A stretch of 64,000 nt of DNA from Linnemannia elongata (Eukaryota; Mortierellomycota; Mortierellomycetes; Mortierellales; Mortierellaceae): contig JAXBDG010000017.1 of assembly GCA_036320915.1 (NCBI GenBank), forward strand, positions 1,054,001 to 1,118,000, written 5' to 3'. This document shows positions 42,606 through 62,763 of this stretch, piece by piece (within the stretch, counting starts at the first letter, position 1; every line of letters begins with the position of its first letter). A program made the position numbers and the translations under genes. A model generated the notes under the pieces. It saw only the letters and a program-made list of their open reading frames with translations. It was not told the origin of the DNA and ran no database searches.

Positions 42606-43688
42606 TCACAGGCCGAGGTTTCGCTGACTGGAAGAAGAAGGAGAAGTACGCGTGGTGGACGCGGTGGTCTTGGGTTGAGTGAAATAAGCCGCTCCACAAA
42701 CCAACGCCAACAACATAAACGTCCATTTGATCAACGAAAGGACCACCATCTCCATATACGCCAACATCCTTGCAAAATAACCCTCCTCGTGTCCATATCC
42801 ATGCTGCTCTTGTCCTCCATAAAACTTGGCATCACCGCCCTTTTTACCCTTATTCATCTTTCTGTACCTCTTGGCCATCTCCGCTTCCAAAGCCTGAGCC
42901 TTCTTCAACCTCTTCAACGCATCGGGGCCAGGCCAGGGTTTGTTGCCCTCCTTGGAATCGAAACAGCTAACCTCGATGGAATCAACGGTAGTGATATACT
43001 CGTCCAGGTTATCGGGTCCATAGTCGGTCTTCCCGCCGGCCCAGTCTCGCGTCTCAACCGCGTGTCCTGCATCCCAAACCGTCAATTGCAACTGCATGGG
43101 CTTCTCAGGCAAACCACCAAGAGCATCTTTCGCAAGCACTGTTCTGAGGACCTTTCCATCAACGGACCAACGGATCATTTTGTCCGTCCATTCGATCTTG
43201 TAGACTAGGTCGTGTTTTGTCGAATCTCGTTTCAATTCATGACTCTCCTCATGAGAGTCCAACTTCCAAACGGGTTGGTGGCGGTGATTGTGACCATGGA
43301 CCCCGTTGTTTCCCCCAAGACGATGCTGTACAGCCTCCTCAAGGGTTTCGGTAGGTCGGACGCGACGGTAATAGTTGGTAATAACCCGTTTGGGGTCTCG
43401 ACCAGTCAATTCGAACGAAATCTCTTCACCAAGGGCAGGGTTGGAGAGCAAGAAGGCAGTGACAATGCCTGGACCTGTGGCGCCTGATCTGAACTTTGCG
43501 GTGAAAGTTCCGTATTTGTTCCAGCGAGTTGATGATACGGTTGCACCAAATCCTCCGCCACTCTGTGTCTTAACCATGTCTCTAATTTCGTGTCACGGAC
43601 CGCAGTTATTGTGATTCGTTGGGAGACAAAAAAAAATGAGGTCAGAATGTGATCACCTCTAACAGCATGAAAGGGGTCACTGTTCTTA

Positions 43689-44939: not shown

Positions 44940-46377
44940 CTAGATACGAATGTAGGGGACTCTTCCCATCCTCTCCATCAATGACAACCTCCTCCTTCCC
45001 AACAAACTCTCCAACAGCCGCTCGTCAGCTGCGCGTGGTTCCTTGGTCGCTCCAGGGCAGATCCGATCCTCATGTGTGGCTAGCGAAGCGCCACACGGGC
45101 AGAAACCATCACGCGTGATGTAACCATATCCTTGACTCCAGTCGCCACGGGGGCCTGTGTATTTTGATGTTTTGTCCTTGGCTGAGATGCCCTGGGTCTG
45201 CTCCCACGCGATCGTCGCGGAGCATCGGGGTTTCCAGATCCTCTCTGAGGCCTGCGTCTCCAGATAGCCAACAAATTTGTGGAGGACCGTCTTGGCGATC
45301 GACTGTGGGGTTCTGAAGACCGCGCACCATTCGGTCAACATGCTCTTAGGGGTGATGCCGCGGAGTAAGTCCGATACGTTCCATTTGGGGTTCTCATCGC
45401 GATCGGGAGCAGGACTACCGCTGTGCACGGCTCGAGCTCCACCGATAGAGGAGAATCCCTGCACATGATCCGCATCTCGGGGGAACCGCCAGTATACGGG
45501 TACTGGCCTCGGGGCTAGACGACCGTTATCCACCGCGCGTCTGTGTTCTCGATTCCTGGCTGCATTGTAGCTGTTTGTCGCCTGTACACCCCACTCGTCG
45601 ATCTTGCCCATAGCCTCCTTCCAGATCGTAGTGATAGTTTCAGCTGCCGAGGCACAGTTCCAGACATGTTCGTTATCCTCCTTCTCGAGCTCGCATCGTC
45701 GGCAAAGGCATGTTGGGTACAGATTGGGCTTGCGGGCCTGCATGGAGTTCAGGGTGGGCAACATCCCATGCAGCTTTTTGATGTGGTGTGTCCGTTGATG
45801 GGAGTCTTTGCTGTTGCTGTAAAAGGTAAAGACTGCTCGCCTGTCGTGAACATGAGCCAAGGTCGAGGTCCACTCCACGTCGTCAATGTCAGGGATCGCC
45901 CTCTTCACCCGTCTCTGCGACATCCAGGCCTGGTGGTGACGGATTGTCGTTTGTTGTTTGAGTAGCTGTCGTAGATCGATTTCAACAAGCCCGCCGTAGC
46001 ACTGTGCAAAGCTCCTGATGTCCGTCTGCTGCGTGAGATCCACTGTCAAGGGTACCGTAACACTCTGTGCTGCCGCCTTTGCCGCCTGGTCCGCCAGCTC
46101 GTTACCGTGATTGTTATTATGTCCCTTAATCCATACCACCTCAACCCCACCTGGCCGAGATTCCACGACCTGCCATAGCACCGCCCAAATACCCGTGTAT
46201 GTGCTCCTGAATCGTTTCCTCGGTAAGGCATCCCGACGATTCTTCACTAGACGTTGATACTTGTCCACCACCGACTCGTTGTCTAATTTGACCACAATGT
46301 CCTGTTCCGGAGGTGCTGACACGACTGCGACTAGAAGGCCCATGAGCTCAGACTTGGCCGAGGACGCATGACCGTCC
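44940..46377 (-). pseudogene. LINE ORF2 C-terminal remnant: RNase H plus zinc-binding tail
   Basis: About 478 codons remain, intact to the stop. The RNase H part shows GHASSAKSELMGLL, the D in VKLDNESVV, the histidine-bearing VWIKGHNNNHGNELADQAAK and its last aspartate. A C-x2-C...H...C segment follows (CLCRRCELEKEDNEHVWNC), a zf-RVT-like knuckle usual downstream of LINE RNase H. The C-terminus has another Cys-rich patch (FCPCGASLATHEDRICPG). Reverse transcriptase is absent, so it cannot act alone. The apparent start upstream of 46377 reads through the nested element's A tail and is an artefact. Confidence 0.85.
46362..46377. repeat. Target-site duplication, left copy
   Basis: GGACGCATGACCGTCC, identical to 46606-46621, flanking the nested LINE fragment. 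It belongs to the coding sequence of the outer element. Confidence 0.9.
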
Positions 46378-46605
46378 TTTTTTTTTTTTTTTTCGTACAC
46401 AATTTTATTTCTCTGACAAACAGAACAAAGGAGGCATTTGGAAGTAAAAGGGACTACAGACCAAACTCTTCAGTGAACCATCCGTCAGTCACAGTCCGGT
46501 CCGGGACCTGGCTCTGCGCAACAATTGTCGCTGCTCTTCACAGCAATAACGGAAGAAAATAAAACTAGATACGAATGAAAGGGATTCTTCCCATCCTCTC
46601 CATCT
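46378..46605 (-). mobile_element. Nested short LINE 3' fragment of the same family
   Basis: 228 bp holding an A tail (plus-strand T 46378-46393), the same 3' UTR as the outer element (both begin CGTACACAATTTTATTTCTC on the plus strand) and the last ~13 codons of its ORF, diverged at a few positions. It is flanked by perfect direct copies of GGACGCATGACCGTCC (46362-46377 and 46606-46621), a 16-bp target-site duplication, as left by target-primed reverse transcription. Confidence 0.92.
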
Positions 46606-50333: not shown

Positions 50334-51381
50334 TTAGAATCCAAGAGCCTCGTTGACCAAAAGAACCTGGATACGTCCAGGAGTGAAGGGGCTCTGCTGG
50401 AGCAACAACTCGTAATGGCTCATAGAGGTACCAGGGGCCTTGAAGACCTCTCTCGAGAAGGCACCAGCAGCAGGAACGCACCACTCCATAGTACGCTTGT
50501 AAGCCTCATCAACATCCTTAACAATCTTGTTGGAGCCAACAACAACGATGACGTTCTTAGCACCAAAGGCAACACCTCCAACCTTAGAGCCGGTCAAATC
50601 ACCGTGGGCCATAGCACCAGTCTCGGTGACGGCGGCCATGGAGGTGAGGAAGTAGTCGACGGTGGTACCGATGGTGCGGCGGAGCTCGGCCTGCTTAGCG
50701 AGATCCTTCTCGGCGAGAATGGTGGAGCGGACGTTGTTGTAGGGGGTCTCTCCGATGATGTAGTCGATGAATCCGAGCTGTTGGTGGGTAGAGGAGATGG
50801 GATGAAGATTAGTATGGCGAAAATTTAGAGTTGAGGATTGAGGAAGATCTTGACTCCTTTTCTGTCGGGTAAAGATCATCCGTACGAAGGGAGAAGGATA
50901 ATCAATCCTCTTTCCTTTGACCCATCTCCTTGAAGTTGCCGCTTTTTCTCCCCCCTGGAACTTCTGCAATGACCAAAAGGATATCAATAATGCTTACCTC
51001 CTCAAGAGTGGTGCTGTGGGCGACGTTCAAGGAAGCACCCTATCATTTCAAAGGTTATCATATGAAATCGTATTAGTCGATCAGTCTCTCATCGTAAGGC
51101 AAAGTAAAAAGCACACAACAAAACACTTCGACGATCGGCACAAGAAAAAGAAAACTCACATCGGGAATGAGGGTCTTGAGGGTCTCAAAGGCCTCATCAC
51201 GGTTCTGGGCAACGGTGACCTTGAAGCCCTTGGACTCGAGGGCAGCGCGGGCAGACTCGAAGCGCTCGGGGGAGGCAGCCTTGGAGTAGGCGCCGTCCTT
51301 GAGGTGGGCGATCTTCTCGTCAGTCTTGAGGAGAGCCTCGAGGGTGGTGTGGGCGTAGGAGTTGGCAGGGCGGGTCGACAT
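50334..51381 (-). CDS. LUD-domain (LutC/YkgG-like) protein
   Basis: Three exons (51381-51160, 51039-50998, 50777-50334) give 235 aa; exon 2 is only 42 nt. The core follows the LUD pattern: ESKGFKVTVAQNRDEAFETL, LIPDGASLNVAHSTTLEELG, YFLTSMAAVTETGAMAHGDL and GAKNVIVVVGSNKIVKDVDE. In bacteria LutC belongs to an iron-sulfur lactate oxidase complex, but stand-alone LUD proteins of unknown role are common, and this one has no fused Fe-S domain. The genuine introns and C-ending codons show it is a host gene, well expressed by codon bias. The exact reaction is unknown. The gene precedes the RdRp element on the same strand, 1 kb away. Confidence 0.82.
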
Positions 51382-52382: not shown

Positions 52383-54185
52383 TTACTCCTCAACCTCACG
52401 GGCGAGGACGGTGAAGCGGTACCACTGCTCGATCGTAATACGGCAAGGCAGTGGAGGGAGTCTTCCTATGTTCCAGTAATCCCTCGTCACCATCTTCTCC
52501 ATTGACTTAGGCCAAGCAGTCGGGCGTTCAAACTCCAGGGTCTCCAGATAGTCCAGGTACTTCTCCAGCCATTGCTGTGTCTCTGGGTTGCCCGCCGCGT
52601 TCAGATATAACCCAATCGCTCGTAACCATGAGTGCTCTGGGGAATACTCACCATACTTCGGAAACATCAGGCTTAGATACGTCTCCTTGAAGGGTCGGCA
52701 GGGAACGACAATCTTGGGCGCGTATGGGCCTTCGCCCCAGCGTTGGTGTCGAAAGTAGGCGCCCAGGAATTGGACGCCCTGGAAGCGGGGTGAACCAGGC
52801 AGACTGTCGTCCATGAGTTGTCGGGTGCTGAAAGACTTCTTGCCGGACCAGTCAATGTTAAAGCAGTCCAGGACCACTGCTGCAAGAGTCTCCTTGGTGA
52901 GGTAGATCCAATCTATCTCGAGGGCCATGACCATATCATCTCCCAGGACCTCGATCTCACATTGCGTCAGGATCAATTCGACACCTATGGCTCCCATGCG
53001 CTCCTCGGCCTTGACAATCAGAGCAGTGTATCCCAAGAACATTGTGATGATGCTCTGGACCAAGGTGTTAAAACAATTTCCACTGGTGGTGCCGACATGT
53101 TTCTGCATCCGGATCCCGTCATCGCGACAAATCACCACCTCCACCAGAGACTCGTAGACAAATGACCACAGCGTGTCGTACTTGGGGTCCATTCCTCCTA
53201 CAAACTGCTCCCTCAGGACCAACAGCGCCTCCTTGACCAGCCAGCCATCGATCGCGGCATCATACTTTTTGGCGTCAAAGCAATGGTAGACCGCATGGCG
53301 GGTCATTTTGTTCACAAACTTTTCAGATCCGCCATGGTACCAACTCTGTCCAATGTGAATCGGCCATCGTTCCTCCAGGTACGCCGCCGTCAAGGGTTGT
53401 TCCAGCGCCCCCAGGATCAACAGATCGCGATGACTCAACATCAAAATCAATCTTCCCATCGAGATATTATCCCTGTCTACATCAACTCGTCCGTGCTGAC
53501 CTCCAGCACCTCTCTCAATCAACTTGCCCTTCCCGCCCAATCGAGTGTCGTGAGGTCGAACAGTTCTCCCATCGAGCAAGGTATCCCAGACGATTCTCGC
53601 ATCACTCAACGCCATTGGATGAGCCTGGTCCCGAGACTTGAGCTTCAGCCGCGCATAGTCAAGTCCCGCAAACTTGGACCCGTCATAACGAACATTCGAC
53701 AGTGAGGCGTTGGTCGGCATCGGAAGTTTTTCGGGCAAGGCCATGAGCTCAGATACGTGGCGGACCGCTCGACGGAAGGCTCGTTCGTACTTTTGGGGCA
53801 TGGGCCTCGGTTGTCGGTTAAACAGTCGGAGGTGGTTCATCTGAATGGGCGAACAAGGCTTGACATAATCGTACTGGGAGACGTCGAAACCGGCAGGCAA
53901 GGGAGGAGGGCACATCTTGCTGAATTGTCGGATATGAGGGTCCTGTTCGACATAGTCTATAATCTTGTCCATGGGCTTGTAGAACTTCTTGTTCGCGTGG
54001 AACGTGAAGTGAATAAACTCGCTCTGGAGTTCGACTCGAGTCCTGTCAAGGTCGTGTCGGTTGAATAGCGGTGGTCCTTTATGGACGACAGGTGGTCGTC
54101 GGTAGTAAGACCCTTGAGAGATATGGAATTGACTGAACAATTCGTCCAAGTCGATTCCATTGAGAGTTGCAGAGAATGCCGCCAT
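52383..54185 (-). CDS. Partitivirus-like RNA-dependent RNA polymerase, endogenous viral element, intact ORF
   Basis: A single intronless 600-aa ORF. It matches dsRNA partitivirus RdRps in order and spacing: the upstream QPLTAAYLEERWPIHIGQ region, motif A with D304-x4-D309 (HCFDAKKYDAAI), motif B with T367-S368-G369-N370 (TTSGNCFNTLVQSI), motif C with G415-D416-D417, then the FLGAYF and RPFKETYLSLMFP regions. The length suits alphapartitivirus-type enzymes, though the genus is not certain. All metal-binding aspartates are present and no stop or frameshift occurs, so the ORF could encode active polymerase, unlike most decayed viral fossils. No coat-protein-like ORF adjoins. Host genes lie on both sides, so it is integrated. 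The frame is open upstream to 54413, but the hydrophobic extension looks like translated leader, so ATG 54185 is preferred. Confidence 0.9.
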   Translation of the reverse strand: MAAFSATLNGIDLDELFSQFHISQGSYYRRPPVVHKGPPLFNRHDLDRTRVELQSEFIHFTFHANKKFYKPMDKIIDYVEQDPHIRQFSKMCPPPLPAGFDVSQYDYVKPCSPIQMNHLRLFNRQPRPMPQKYERAFRRAVRHVSELMALPEKLPMPTNASLSNVRYDGSKFAGLDYARLKLKSRDQAHPMALSDARIVWDTLLDGRTVRPHDTRLGGKGKLIERGAGGQHGRVDVDRDNISMGRLILMLSHRDLLILGALEQPLTAAYLEERWPIHIGQSWYHGGSEKFVNKMTRHAVYHCFDAKKYDAAIDGWLVKEALLVLREQFVGGMDPKYDTLWSFVYESLVEVVICRDDGIRMQKHVGTTSGNCFNTLVQSIITMFLGYTALIVKAEERMGAIGVELILTQCEIEVLGDDMVMALEIDWIYLTKETLAAVVLDCFNIDWSGKKSFSTRQLMDDSLPGSPRFQGVQFLGAYFRHQRWGEGPYAPKIVVPCRPFKETYLSLMFPKYGEYSPEHSWLRAIGLYLNAAGNPETQQWLEKYLDYLETLEFERPTAWPKSMEKMVTRDYWNIGRLPPLPCRITIEQWYRFTVLAREVEE

Positions 54186-54410
54186 CGTTCCTGTCGTGAA
54201 GATAACACAAAGTAGGTGTCTCTTTGTGGATATTGGTGTTTTGGTGGATGTTGATGGTGAGAAAAAAAGTGCGTGGAGGAGTGGGAAAGAACATAGAAAG
54301 GAGACTGTGTGAAAAAAAGTACAACAAAAAAAAAAGACAAGGGCGCAGGACAGTGAGGTTTGATCGGGGGCAGCCATGCATGCCTTTTTTCTCCCGAGCA
54401 GGCAGGCACT
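54186..54410 (-). promoter_or_regulatory. Host-like pyrimidine-rich leader of the RdRp element
   Basis: In the gene sense this stretch is dominated by T/C runs (CTTTTTTTCACACAG, TTTCTCACCATC) and ends in an ACAGGAACG context before ATG 54185. It resembles the leaders of neighbouring host genes more than a viral untranslated region. Promoter activity is only inferred. Confidence 0.35.
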
Positions 54411-54768: not shown

Positions 54769-56679
54769 CTAGTCCTGCCGAGGGAATGATCCTGGAAGAG
54801 TTGAGGAACCTCTCTGTTGCTGCTGCTCTTGTTGCTGCTGCTGTTGCTGTGCGTCTTCCTCAGGTACCAAAGAGAACCGACATGTTGGGCAGGTTGCACT
54901 TGTCTTGAGCCAGGGCTTGATGCAGTCCTCGTGGAAAATGTGTTTGCACTTCAATTGGGTGCATGTATCCTGCCTCTCAAACTCGTCTTTGCATACACTG
55001 CACTCGGTTTTCGCATCTGTGCAATTGAAGCAGGGATCAGAGAGTACAAACAAAAAAAATTATCAGATGATGTATCGGATTCTTTTTGGAGATCAAATGC
55101 GTATTCGAGATGCTGTGGCCATCACTGCAGAGAAGGAAAAAATAAGAACATACCAAGTTCCTCAGACGTGAGAGTATGTTGGGGCAGCTCGTTAATCGCC
55201 TCCTCTGACAATGCCACAGGCCCATTTTGACGACTACGAGTACACACACATACACGTACACACACAAAAGTAATCCTTGAGTTAGTCAATTGAACCATAA
55301 ACAATGAGCACATATCAAGAAAATTGAAAGGAGCAAAGGACGAGGGAATACCTTTGCATCTCCATCATTTGCGTGATCACATCATCAAGTCCTCCTTGGC
55401 CAAAGACGTAGTCTCCTGGATTTCCGACCATGTTGAACAGCCCTCCGAATCCTCCCAAACCCGGCTGACCGCCTTCGTTCATGAAGCGTAGTTCGAGTCC
55501 GATACGTTCCAACAGGCTATGATTAGAATGAGTAAAAAGTAAGAACGAAAAACAACAGCAAGTCAGCATGACATTGTCACAGGGAAGGGGCGAAAAAAGG
55601 AGAGTTTTGTGCTGCGTTGCTGTGTTCAATATGCGTGACGAACAAAGAACTGTACGTTTGATCCTCGCCCAGTAGAACAACTCAATCCTCTTAGTTTGCT
55701 CCTTCCTTGTGTCATTCCTTTTGGTTTCATTCTCACTCTGCAATCTGTCGATGACATACCTTGAAATGGAGGTTGGTGGACCCTGTAGTTGTTGATGAGG
55801 TTCCGTATCCTGCTCGATATCTAGCATCTCTTCATCCTCGTCATGGGGTCCCGTGGCAGCGGCGCGAGCGGCGTTGGTAGTAGTGTTTCCTGAGGCAGAT
55901 CGAGCCGCCTGAGAATTGAATAGACTAAAAGGGCTCGTTGCTGTTCCTGCTCCGGTTCCTGTAGGGTATCCACCGGGCAATTGTCCCTGTGCCTGTTGTT
56001 GCCGCTGGTTGACTGTCATAGGCGCACTGGATAGAAGGTGGATGACGCGAAGCAGATCCTCCAGTCCCACGGCCTCCTGTCCTTCCTGTCCATCATCGTC
56101 ATCGTCGCCTTGTTCGTGTCCAGCTTCTACAAAGGACCGAGGGTCGTTGTCCTCCTCAATCTAAAATATGTTGCAATAACGGGCCGTTACAGAGGGGTCA
56201 GATACAACACTCTGTTCATGCAGAGCGCATTCCTAATAGGCATGTCCTGTCTGAGACCGTAATGTTGGGGCGTTTATTTGGTTGTTCTTTCGCCACGCCT
56301 GTTTCCTGTTGTGGTGAAAGTTGTACCTTTTCGACAAACTCGCTATGGCACTCAGGACAGAGAGGGTGCGGGACCATCATAGGGGTGATCTCGGCAGAGC
56401 ACTATACGATTCAATGAGGAATGAATGACAAAGGTAAAACAAGTAGAGGGATTTGTTAAAATAACACGACTTTGTTTCTTCCTTGCTACATTGCACAAGC
56501 AGCTTTTGAGCAAGCTTGGCGTTTTTTTTCTTTGTGTAAGCTCGGTTGGTTCCTGATTAGTTTCCGACATGAGTCTCGAATGGAAAAAAAGACGAAGTAC
56601 TTGCCTGGTGGCACCAATGATCTCTGCGGGACCGTGGGGTTGTTGTTGGAGGGGTGTTTTCAGCGAGCGGGCTGTTCAT
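54769..56679 (-). CDS. RING-H2 E3 ubiquitin ligase (RNF115/RNF126-like)
   Basis: Six exons (56679-56605, 56401-56327, 56160-55760, 55516-55352, 55233-55154, 55016-54769) give 347 aa. The N-terminal zinc ribbon HWCHQCSAEI...CPECHSEFVEK and the C-terminal RING-H2 (CSVCKDEF...CKHIFHEDCIKPWL...CPTC, pattern C3H2C3) define the RNF115/RNF126 family, cytosolic ligases in quality control and receptor trafficking. Between them lie an acidic stretch, an LLRVIHLL segment and Gly/Phe-rich repeats. A poly-Gln/Glu tract follows the RING. Intron 1 uses a GC donor (CAG|GCAAGT), which joins HWCHQ to CSAEI and so completes the zinc site. It is divergent from ferroportin across 847 bp. Confidence 0.92.
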
Positions 56680-58226: not shown

Positions 58227-60373
58227 CGTTTTATCGGACGAAGCTCACCCCTTTGTTGTGGCACTCAGATTTTTCGCAAGAATGTTTTAACACATGTTTC
58301 TTGTTCTCCCCGTATTGGCCGCGTACATTTTCGCGCGGGCACTTTTTTTTTTTTTTTTTTTTTTCCTTTCAATAGCGGTACAGTCGTTCCTTTTCACACA
58401 GAAACTTACAACTATAATTGGCGCACTCGGGTTCTGGATCCTTTTGACGTGGTTCGATCCTTCAACAGCAACGTCATCGCCACTACAACCATCCTCAGCA
58501 ACAGATACCACAACTACAGCGGGAGATTTGACTACCAGCATGTTAGGACTTTCGATGGTTCAAGGATACAGTCTGTTCGGGCTGATGGTCGTCGCCAGCG
58601 GGGTGTTGAAACTCTCGGCCCTCGGCTGGTCCATCTCAATCGAACGCGACTGGATTGTCGCGCTCTGTCACTCCAACTCGGACGCCTTGACTCGTAAGCG
58701 CACATATCTCACTTCCATACAATCCAGCACCTGGCACCAAACCCATCACGCAAACTCGGTCTAACTTCCTCGATTCTTCTTTCACGCATACTAGGCCTTA
58801 ATGTGACAATGAAGAGGATAGACCTAGTCTGCAAACTCATCTCGCCACTCGTATTTGCAGGACTCTTGGCATACTTCCACGCCGGATACTGCAGTCTGAT
58901 CATGGCCATTTGGTGTTTGGCATCCTTTCTTACAGAGTGGCTCCTAGTCCGTCGGATCTGGGACCTCTCTCCCATTCTCTGGCAACCCCGGTCACACCAC
59001 CACCTATCGTTGCCTTCTGAAGGTGGTTGTGGACGGCAGGGGTCTGGATTTGTGGATGACAGGAATGTAGCTACAGAGTCAGGGGTAGCAGCGGCGGCAA
59101 GGAAGAAGAAGAAAGATAGTGATAGCCGGACGCCGTTGGTTGCTCGGGATGTCTTCTCGAATCAAGAACGACAGTCTCTGTTCGCAGCGGAGGATACTGG
59201 ACATCATCAGCGGCAACGAAGTGGACAAGGAGGAGCAAGATCTTCGCTTGTGAAGCGAGGCATTTTGTCGTTCCGCGAGTATTCACATCATATCGTCTTC
59301 CTGGCCTCACTTGCCTACGCCATTATCTACATCAACATGATGAGGTTCGTATGCCTTCCCTACCTAAACCTTGCCTATTTTTTCAACTCTCCTGTCCACC
59401 AGATCAATCAACCTAACACTCACATCCACCACTCCCTCTTTCTTCTACTACTAAACAGCGTCTCAGGAACAATGATAGGCTACCTACAATACCGCAACTT
59501 TAGTGCAACATCCATAGCAACCCTCAAGGGAATCTGCACAGTCTCAGAACTCTTCGGCACAATCCTCATGCCCACCCTTACCCGATACGTCGGCCTAACC
59601 CGAGCAGGCGCCTGGTCCATCTGGCTTGAAGTTTTTACCCTAACGCCGGTGCTGTTTTCTATTTATTCTGATCAGTTACCGGTTCAGGTTTTTATCTTTG
59701 GTAAAGTCAATCAAAGGAAAAACGGATGAAAAGTGGTTGGTTATTCGCCACCAATATTTTTGTTGTGTAAAAACTAACTCGCAAACATTCTTCGAAAAAA
59801 AAAAAAAAAAAAAAAAAAAAAAACACTCCCCCTCACGTAGCGGGAATGGCACTCTCCAGGATAGGTGTCTGGTCATTCGACCTCGTTATCACCCAAATCA
59901 TGCAAGAATACATCCAACCCGATCCTCACACTATCGACAGCAACAGCAACAATAGCAACAGCAACAACAACAATAGCAGCAGCAACAACAACAACGCAGG
60001 AGTCATCAATGGCTGGCATTACTCGCTCATGAACCTTTTCGAACTCGCCCAATTCTTCTTGACAATGATCTGGTCCGACCCCCAGGTGTACTACATCCCC
60101 TGCACCATTTCCTTTGTCTGTGTTGTTGTGGGAGCTGTGGTTTATACAGTACATTTGTTCAGAATGCGAGGGCATTTGTTTCATTACCATCGGATCATTT
60201 CTTCTTCGCCTTCTTCAGGTCCTACTGTCACGGTTGCGGACAGTCTCGGTGAGAATGATGGTCAACCAGAGTCGTCGCGAAACAGTGGCGGCAGCAGTGT
60301 TGTTGTTGTTGGCGTCCATAGAGATGGCGGACATGATAGCGCAGGCGTTGTCTCCCGTCGACCCATTCATTAG
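57527..60373 (+). CDS. Ferroportin (SLC40) iron exporter
   Basis: Six exons (57527-57774, 57957-58123, 58376-58693, 58795-59344, 59459-59700, 59841-60373) give 685 aa. After a ~75-residue polar N-terminus the transporter begins: SLHLYAVHALCTFDERLYEF, FIMEIFKTTLLPMSIYG, TTVGSIVDTTPRLTAVQSF, and LNVTMKRIDLVCKLISPLVF, the last matching the ferroportin N-x-T-x2-R-I-D signature. A large charged cytosolic loop (KKKKDSDS, RQRSGQGG) is followed by the second helix bundle (SVSGTMIGYLQYRNFSATSI, MPTLTRYVGLTRAGAWSIWL). The last exon holds an Asn/Ser-rich stretch and a further helix pair. The family moves Fe2+ out of the cytosol across the plasma membrane or vacuole. Introns 2 and 5 contain long T and A runs. 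It converges with the carrier gene 171 bp away. Confidence 0.9.
58189..58226. repeat. Poly(T) run, 38 nt, in ferroportin intron 2
   Basis: Uninterrupted T in the transcript sense; a second T run (~58343-58364) lies near the acceptor of the same intron. Confidence 0.9.
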
Positions 60374-60544: not shown

Positions 60545-62763
60545 TCACCGAGATCCAGTAGAGCCAAGATTCCCAATAGGAGAAGGATCGTTTGCATGCC
60601 CTGACCACGTCTTGACATAATCCATGACAGCTTCATAGACCAAAAAGTTCAACGAATGGATCGGCATCGCCCGGTAACAGGTTACGCTCAGGCCTCGGTA
60701 TAGACCCCTGACTCCTTCCCGGCGGACAATATCCTTGGCGCAGTCCAGTGCCCCCGAGTACTTTGGATGTGTTGCGAGGACCTCCTTCTGGATTACGCTC
60801 TTGACAAGGTCGATCGGGAAGACTACCAGCCACGAGAACACACCACAGAGTCCTCCCGCAAAGAAATGAACCATCGGTCCCGGTCCCTTGAGTGTCGTTG
60901 TTGTCGTCGTACCTGTAGTCCCTGATGCGGCAGCTGTATGGTGGTGTGGCCTGACATGCTCAATCGTCTCAGACATGAGCCGCTTGATAGTCTCGTAACT
61001 CGAAAAGTAGATTCCAGTACCGAGCATATCACGCGTAATATGCAGACTCGCACCCTTGTAAAGTCCAATAAGCCCCTTCTTTTGCACAATCGCCTTGGTA
61101 GTCTTCCAACTCGAGTTTCCTGCGTCCTCCTTAGGAGGCACTCCATACTGTGTAATTGATCCATGCGAATGTCTCTCCACCTTGGCAGCCACCGCCGCCG
61201 AAGAAGCTACTCCTCCTACTCCTGTAGCAGCACCCTTCTTCTTCTCCAAAGCCAAACCCTCTCTCAGGAGAGCATCTCCCGTCAGCGACGTGATCTGAGC
61301 CTCCTTCCTTGCATGCATCGCCATCAGCTTCTCCAATTGCCGCTGCAACTTGACCAACTCCAAAGGACTCGACATCATGGCCACCACGGTTCCTGCAACA
61401 CTTCCCGAAATAAACGTTAGACCGATGAGCGAGGGGATCGTGTTGCCCTGTAATGTCTCTGAGACGCTCCTGACTTGTTGTTTAGACCCCTCGTAGACCG
61501 AGAATGAGATCGATTTGATGATTGACACTGTGATCAAGGGTGGGATCATACCTAGTTCATAGATCATGGAAAGAAAAAAATGACATCGATAGACATCATG
61601 ATCGATTTTCGTTGGGTTAGTTGAATTCTATTGATCCAAAAAGTTGTCCTTAGATCGAAAAAGAAAAAAAAAAACGATTCGTTCATCTAAAAAGGACGAT
61701 AGCCAGCCTTCCTTTTTACCATTCTGTTTCCTTACCTCGAAAGAAACCACCTAGCCGCTCCTCTGCATAAGTCTTCCGGACACAATCCATGATCGATTTG
61801 TACGAGTGGGTCTGCATCCTGGTCTTGACCGAATCGAACTACAAATAGAAACAATTGTGCATGACAATAGAGCGCGAGTGAGAGAGTTCGGGAGGAAAAG
61901 AGGTGAGCAATTAGATCCCACGAACGGAATGTTCATCTGGAAAATGGCATGATTTTTGTCTGTCCCGCTTATTTCTTTTCCCAATTGATCTTTTTGCTGG
62001 ATTCATGGGGCTGGGTGCTTGCTGATAAGCAAGATCGCATTGAGGGCCATGGTGAAATGGCGGGCGGGCAGCGACAGGTGACAAACCGGATTGCAACAAA
62101 AAGCGTCGTATTGTCAATCCTCCAGCTACCATGGGGGTCAATTGATTCCAATGAGATGGATGTATCGTCCTCGCACTGTATTGTTTTCCATGGTCCGCTG
62201 GTTGCTTTGTTCCCGATCCTGTTTATTTCTCATCTGATGTTGCACGGTTTGTGCTCCCGTTCCAACAATTCCCCGATTGAAACACGAAAAAAAGAAAAGA
62301 ACAAAGCAAAAAAGTATTCAATGTGCAACCACAATCGTCTGGGAACACTGTGCGTGTGTGTATTTTCCACTCACAGGAAAGCCAGACAAGACACTGCACA
62401 CCGCCGCGCTCGAGGCCGCCAACACTGTTCTATTCTCTGGAAATGATAAGAAAGTGCAAAGGGTGTGAATTTTTTGGGGGTGCTTTACTGGTCATGCTCA
62501 GCTTTAAAAGTCATGCATGATGAATGCACAATGACATTCCACCAGTTAAAACGACAGGATTAAAGAAACGTACTCCATGCCCATTCTTGGAGAAGCTGGT
62601 GATCATGTGGGGTGATGGCAAAGAGATGTGAGACCGAGGATGATGACGATCCGCCGCCGAGTGATCCTGGTGGCGACGACGAGGGATCGTCGAAGGTCCT
62701 GCTATTGGTTGGTGTGGTGACTGATGTAGTGGTGGATGTTGATGTCGTAGTTGTTGATGCCAT
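60545..62763 (-). CDS. Mitochondrial carrier family protein (YFR045W-like)
   Basis: Four exons (62763-62574, 62436-62375, 61838-61736, 61551-60545) give 453 aa. Three carrier repeats are visible: repeat 1 GFPFDSVKTRMQ...LGGFFRG, repeat 2 SSPLELVKLQRQ...GLIGLYKG, and repeat 3 VFPIDLVKSVIQ...GVRGLYRG, each with the P-x-[DE]-x2-[KR] and [FY]-x-G signatures split over introns. The string AASSAAVCSVLSGFPFDSVK and the GMIPPLITVSIIKSISFSVY segment resemble the yeast YFR045W group. There is a Ser/Thr-rich N-terminus and a ~60-residue Ala/Gly/Lys insertion after repeat 2's first helix. It is an inner-membrane transporter; the substrate is unknown. Intron 2 (~540 nt) is the longest. Confidence 0.9.

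Follow-up and report, generated by a model that had tools for sequence, protein, structure and literature searches.

The 64,000-nucleotide window analysed here comprises positions 1,054,001–1,118,000 of contig 9 (JAXBDG010000017.1) in the 51.1 Mb, 32-contig genome assembly GCA_036320915.1 of Linnemannia elongata, which we take to be the fungus formerly named Mortierella elongata. It contains a single-exon gene for a virus-derived RNA-dependent RNA polymerase (RdRp), located between two intron-bearing host genes (Table 1). The open reading frame (ORF) begins with an ATG at 54185 and runs on the minus strand over 600 codons plus a stop, with no internal stop or frameshift. A Pfam-A search with its protein returned RdRP_1 (PF00680) as the sole family (51.2 bits, cut-off 23.9; E 1.1e-13), and even at E up to 1 PF00680 stood alone, without any domain of the cellular RdRP family PF05183. 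The assignment to RdRP_1 extends to all 51 aligned members, which match PF00680 at E up to 0.001. Within its own assembly the gene is single-copy: RdRP_1 (E up to 0.1) matched nothing else, and neither did the RdRp protein used as query. The homologue search yielded 50 matches, the weakest with E 2.3e-71, and the predicted structure shows the right-hand fold of viral RdRps (pLDDT, the predicted local distance difference test, 87.8; the model was built from 51 sequences and replaced a poor earlier one from 12 sequences with pLDDT 61.8). With 50 homologues and this predicted fold, the identity of the ORF as an RdRp is not due to chance.

The palm motifs A, B and C, the catalytic aspartates and the matching fold are all present, as in right-hand viral RdRps. 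For a census of host against virus, 31 host rows of the alignment were compared with 15 viral rows, the viral side excluding P0045, P0046, the two Apophysomyces rows and P0051 (Apophysomyces catalytic residues were counted apart). D304, D309, S368, G369, N373 and K450 are identical in all host rows, and G415, D416 and D417 in 30 of the 31, with a gap in the Lobosporangium model; in motif B, SGN of the host rows corresponds to SGH in the viral rows. An intact 600-codon frame with D304/D309, SGN, GDD and FLGAYF had been read from the sequence in the original prediction, which left the strand unstated, and this description was accurate throughout. A protein of Linnemannia elongata in the database is 99% identical to the window RdRp, and none of the six differences falls into the motifs. 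Upstream of the ATG, a pyrimidine tract is followed by a C/A-rich leader resembling the leaders of the neighbouring LUD and RING genes.

Table 1. The RdRp gene, its motifs and other features, in window coordinates
Feature	Position	Strand	Basis
Virus-derived RdRp gene, 600 aa, single-exon ORF	52383..54185	-	ORF, profile search, homologues, structure model
Motif A, residues 302-313 (D304, D309)	53247..53282	-	both Asp in 31/31 host rows
Motif B, residues 365-378 (S368, G369, N373)	53052..53093	-	SGN at 368-370
Motif C, residues 412-422	52920..52952	-	GDD 415-417 at 52935-52943; 30/31 host rows, 1 gap
FLGAYF, residues 473-478	52752..52769	-	alignment of homologues
Pyrimidine-rich tract upstream of ATG, candidate host-type promoter/5' leader	54256..54335	-	82% C+T, against 80% at the 95th percentile of random places in the window
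Right flank: RNF115/126-like RING E3 ligase gene, six modelled exons	54769..56679	-	RdRp neighbour in 12/13 informative assemblies
Left flank: LUD-domain (PF02589) gene, three modelled exons	50334..51381	-	gene model, domain match
Ordinary host gene, ferroportin-like	58803..59729	+	
Ordinary host gene, mitochondrial carrier	60545..61567	-	
Ordinary host gene, GH16 glycosyl hydrolase	42606..43577	-	

The host DNA around the RdRp gene is continuous in the assembly, on a contig longer than 1.1 Mb. Both neighbours have close counterparts among Linnemannia elongata proteins (RING: 99% identity over 93% of its length; LUD: 100% identity). An assembly chimera was rejected on the position of the gene within the contig and on neighbours that are common to relatives, and the predicted integration in a fungal chromosome is borne out. 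The closest non-host relatives are RNA viruses, which characterizes the gene as an endogenous viral element. A search around the ORF for integration footprints (target-site duplication, tail) found weak short repeats alone, which say nothing because the insertion is old. Reverse transcriptase genes are abundant in the present genome, with 83 RVT_1 matches, so that a route from RNA to DNA is at hand.

The searches against viral RdRps and fungal genomes that had been proposed along with the original prediction led to RdRP_1, to RNA viruses and to Mortierellaceae homologues, with no non-viral family ranking best. Among the 50 hits, many of which are nameless, the named viruses were Cryphonectria parasitica bipartite mycovirus 1, Botrytis cinerea mycovirus 3, Podosphaera virus A and Curvularia thermal tolerance virus. 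When predicted viral structures were ranked against the RdRp, Curvularia thermal tolerance virus (a fragment, which is not among the tree rows) and its like were leading with 27–45% identity, and the named partiti-like structures ranked 9th and lower with 14–18%. Judged by sequence and predicted fold, the nearest viruses are therefore the curvulavirus-like bipartite mycoviruses, and the Curvulaviridae are the nearest named group, from which the RdRp clade is separate and well supported. Assignment to the Partitiviridae was rejected on the same two grounds; the original wording, partitivirus-like, holds at the level of the order Durnavirales and fails at that of the family. Curvulaviridae have bipartite double-stranded RNA (dsRNA) genomes, whereas the element found here is a single nuclear gene (RdRp alone was sought). 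The non-host rows are 36–43% identical to the window protein and alike in motifs and fold. The affiliation of Curvularia thermal tolerance virus with the curvulaviruses is given in the available portion of PMC12548735. Among IMG/VR viral contigs, no relative of the RdRp was found by single-protein or alignment search. A related RdRp, P0046, lies on a contig of 145,563 bases and has GDE instead of GDD; it may be an endogenous copy that is decaying or has been altered.

The homologues include 30 of Mortierellaceae type, 53–99% identical to the window RdRp. Together with the window gene they form one clade with 100/100 support and no virus inside (tree of 50 of the 51 rows, the fragment P0051 being left out). 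In 12 of the 13 assemblies in which the locus tags of both genes are visible, the RdRp gene adjoins the same RING paralogue, i.e., it occupies the same locus in many species, as expected of a domesticated gene. These 13 are the assemblies with a paralogue-a RING tag among 27 with a named RdRp; seven have the other paralogue alone, six have none, and in Lobosporangium the RING tag belongs to a different tag series. Two RNF115/126-like RING paralogues exist in Mortierellaceae, and only one of them, not paralogue b, was seen beside the RdRp gene (the RING tree, built quickly and without bootstrap, omits 16 of 75 hits). The insertion is, on this comparative evidence, ancient and not recent. Of the two options offered in the original prediction, a recent insertion or one kept by selection, the single clade and shared locus discard the former, and the catalytic residues and conservation speak for the latter.

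The shared locus also bears on two alternatives. The sequences could stem from free viruses that are host-specific and co-speciate with Mortierellaceae, or from contamination with viral complementary DNA, without any ancient integration. Strong host specificity is indeed offered as an alternative in the results of PMC12548735, whereas its discussion, as far as available, holds the sequences to be likely exclusively endogenous. The long contig with intron-bearing host genes on either side and the common RING neighbour, found in 12 of 13 assemblies on a contig with an identical listed length, contradict this explanation so strongly that we regard it as barely credible. Alternatively, related viruses may have integrated several times independently at one preferred site. 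In Apophysomyces (Mucorales), contigs as long as 212 kb carry a related RdRp whose motifs are intact (P0047, P0048). It is placed among the viral rows in the free tree, which suggests that more than one integration may have occurred in this virus group; maybe it represents a second endogenization. Its placement is unsure, as the approximately unbiased test did not reject its grouping with Mortierellaceae (p-AU 0.123), and the virus-free 100/100 clade and the splits that recur in the tree of the neighbouring host gene speak against repeated integration in Mortierellaceae, which we consider highly improbable.

Conservation is unevenly distributed along the protein. Mean identity among host rows amounts to 79–84% for residues 241–420 and to 35% for the first 60 residues. 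In 90 of 91 pairs, conservation of the RdRp exceeded that of the adjacent RING protein (means 0.667 vs 0.536; one RING model in this comparison is without most of the RING domain). At 14 positions the host rows are fixed for a residue that is rare in the viral rows, including two in motif B (N370, F372) and V413 ahead of GDD; these may be traces of a new role or possibly of lineage alone. From these comparisons, the RdRp gene looks as if it has been kept by selection.

Taken as a whole, a single ancient integration followed by domestication of an RdRp with retained active site appears to us the best explanation, and a likely one. Several observations weigh against it. The RING-a tag of M. hygrophila is not adjacent to RdRp (a partial protein on a different contig). 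LUD lies on other contigs in 4 of 10 assemblies (BGX26, BGX28, BGW38, BGZ98), and LUD tags of lower identity elsewhere (e.g., BG004, BGX31, 64%) are also not near RdRp. The RdRp and RING gene trees disagree on 5 of 11 splits. Named RdRp hits were absent for Actinomortierella, Modicella, Benniella and Gryganskiella (three hits are nameless) despite RING or LUD proteins of these genera in the same database, so that some Mortierellaceae probably lack the gene. The RdRp core exceeds the RING domain alone in just 49 of 91 pairs, and the Lobosporangium transversale protein P0026 is without seven residues, GDD among them, which is either a true loss or a gene-model error. Finally, the conservation counts use annotated proteins, in which stops are invisible and broken copies under-seen. 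Possible stop changes equal 6.3% of possible missense changes in the ORF by counting and the host tree carries at least 3611 amino-acid changes, so that about 227 stops would be expected without constraint; given that limit, the missing stops can be called supportive of constraint and no further. They also bear on the notion of a functionless fossil that is open by chance, with which the lack of an assigned function and of a named copy in some genera would be compatible. Full-length frames in 31 rows and the contrast between the conserved residues 241–420 and the variable first 60 make such a fossil very improbable.

The history most compatible with the data would start from a curvulavirus-like dsRNA mycovirus, whose RdRp gene was copied into DNA by reverse transcription and inserted on a single occasion, beside the RING E3 ligase gene, in a common ancestor of numerous Mortierellaceae. 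The host would then have retained and expressed the gene under purifying selection, with the active site of the polymerase preserved. Expression is probable, as the family was found through mRNA (PMC7482067, available portion). The domesticated RdRp is probably catalytic, to judge from its residues, and there is a good chance that the enzyme copies RNA. A different kind of domestication would be a non-catalytic protein that blocks related mycoviruses by binding their RNA or capsid. Interference by binding has been proposed for other endogenous viral proteins. Related free mycoviruses exist, the gene occurs in many species and not in all genera, as a defence gene would, and the Lobosporangium model is without GDD. 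The catalytic residues of motifs A–D are otherwise fully retained in the host rows, which argues against a mere binder that would not need them, and we consider this role unlikely.

An active viral-type RdRp would make dsRNA, which could feed a Dicer/Argonaute pathway. Eight places in the genome match Argonaute/Piwi, some of them with internal stops, and at two places RNase III domains occur in pairs, the arrangement known from Dicer. It also has one cellular RdRP gene of the two-barrel type at another place. This enzyme of RNA interference, PF05183, is a separate family with a two-barrel fold and would likewise yield dsRNA. That the product of the window gene is dsRNA and enters the Dicer/Argonaute pathway, where it would serve to fend off RNA viruses or to control genes or transposons, is conceivable but somewhat doubtful. 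More tentative still is the full proposal that a catalytically active viral right-hand RdRp has had a cellular role from a time before the main genera diverged, supplementing the two-barrel RdRP as another source of dsRNA and forming part of RNA silencing or antiviral defence. One literature search on domesticated viral RdRp and RNA interference found nothing. On the window's own contig, at 878300–878978, there are Argonaute/Piwi-like pieces with stops, possibly a pseudogene or introns.

The gene family itself is already published. Myers et al. reported, from Phycomyces, Dissophora, Lobosporangium and Mortierella, novel genes that go back to an integrated viral RdRp; they detected them as mRNA, spoke of a novel expressed fungal gene, and left Mortierella elongata undecided because a DNA genome was absent (PMC7482067, 2020, available portion). 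The window locus is, we infer, the same sequence as their Mortierella elongata gene and would supply the DNA locus. Brown and Firth reported 64 Mortierellaceae sequences that follow the host tree; in the portions available, the results offer either old integration or strong host specificity as explanations, and the discussion favours endogenous sequences predating the group (PMC12548735, 2025). The shared locus supports the ancient integration toward which they leaned. By these descriptions, the endogenous clade of Mortierellales and Phycomycetaceae in the former and of Mortierellaceae in the latter is the same family, akin to bipartite mycoviruses and Curvularia thermal tolerance virus and largely recapitulating the host tree. 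At odds with PMC7482067, as far as available, no named Phycomyces protein was among our 50 hits. Absent from the original prediction was that the intact gene is far from isolated, being common to much of Mortierellaceae. In the available portions of both papers there was no common insertion locus, active-site census or neighbour-gene comparison, and these three appear to be new as far as the searched literature shows. No dated phylogeny usable for timing the integration was found in that literature.

Host genes derived from viral capsid proteins and nucleoproteins are well known. To our knowledge, it would be rare for a viral RNA replicase to persist across genera with the active site retained. 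Bornavirus L-derived genes in bats are co-opted non-retroviral endogenous elements, and so are toti-like elements in planthoppers, according to the available part of PMC10636211. As in these bat and planthopper cases, a viral gene appears to have been retained by its host, whereas the viruses and hosts are others and the polymerase active site is retained here across several genera. The shared locus provides direct evidence for ancient integration beyond the phylogeny used in PMC12548735 (available portion). As the gene is defined, single-copy and present in culturable soil fungi, the co-option of viral RNA polymerases by eukaryotes becomes directly testable. If the proposed cellular role is true, the replicase of an RNA virus would have been turned into a part of RNA silencing or antiviral defence in a fungal family.

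Elsewhere in the window, positions 44940–46400 on the minus strand contain the RNase H-bearing part of a retroelement, which we interpret as similar to long interspersed nuclear elements (LINE-like). It has at least 91 matches in the genome, many with more than 90% identity and several located in longer open frames.
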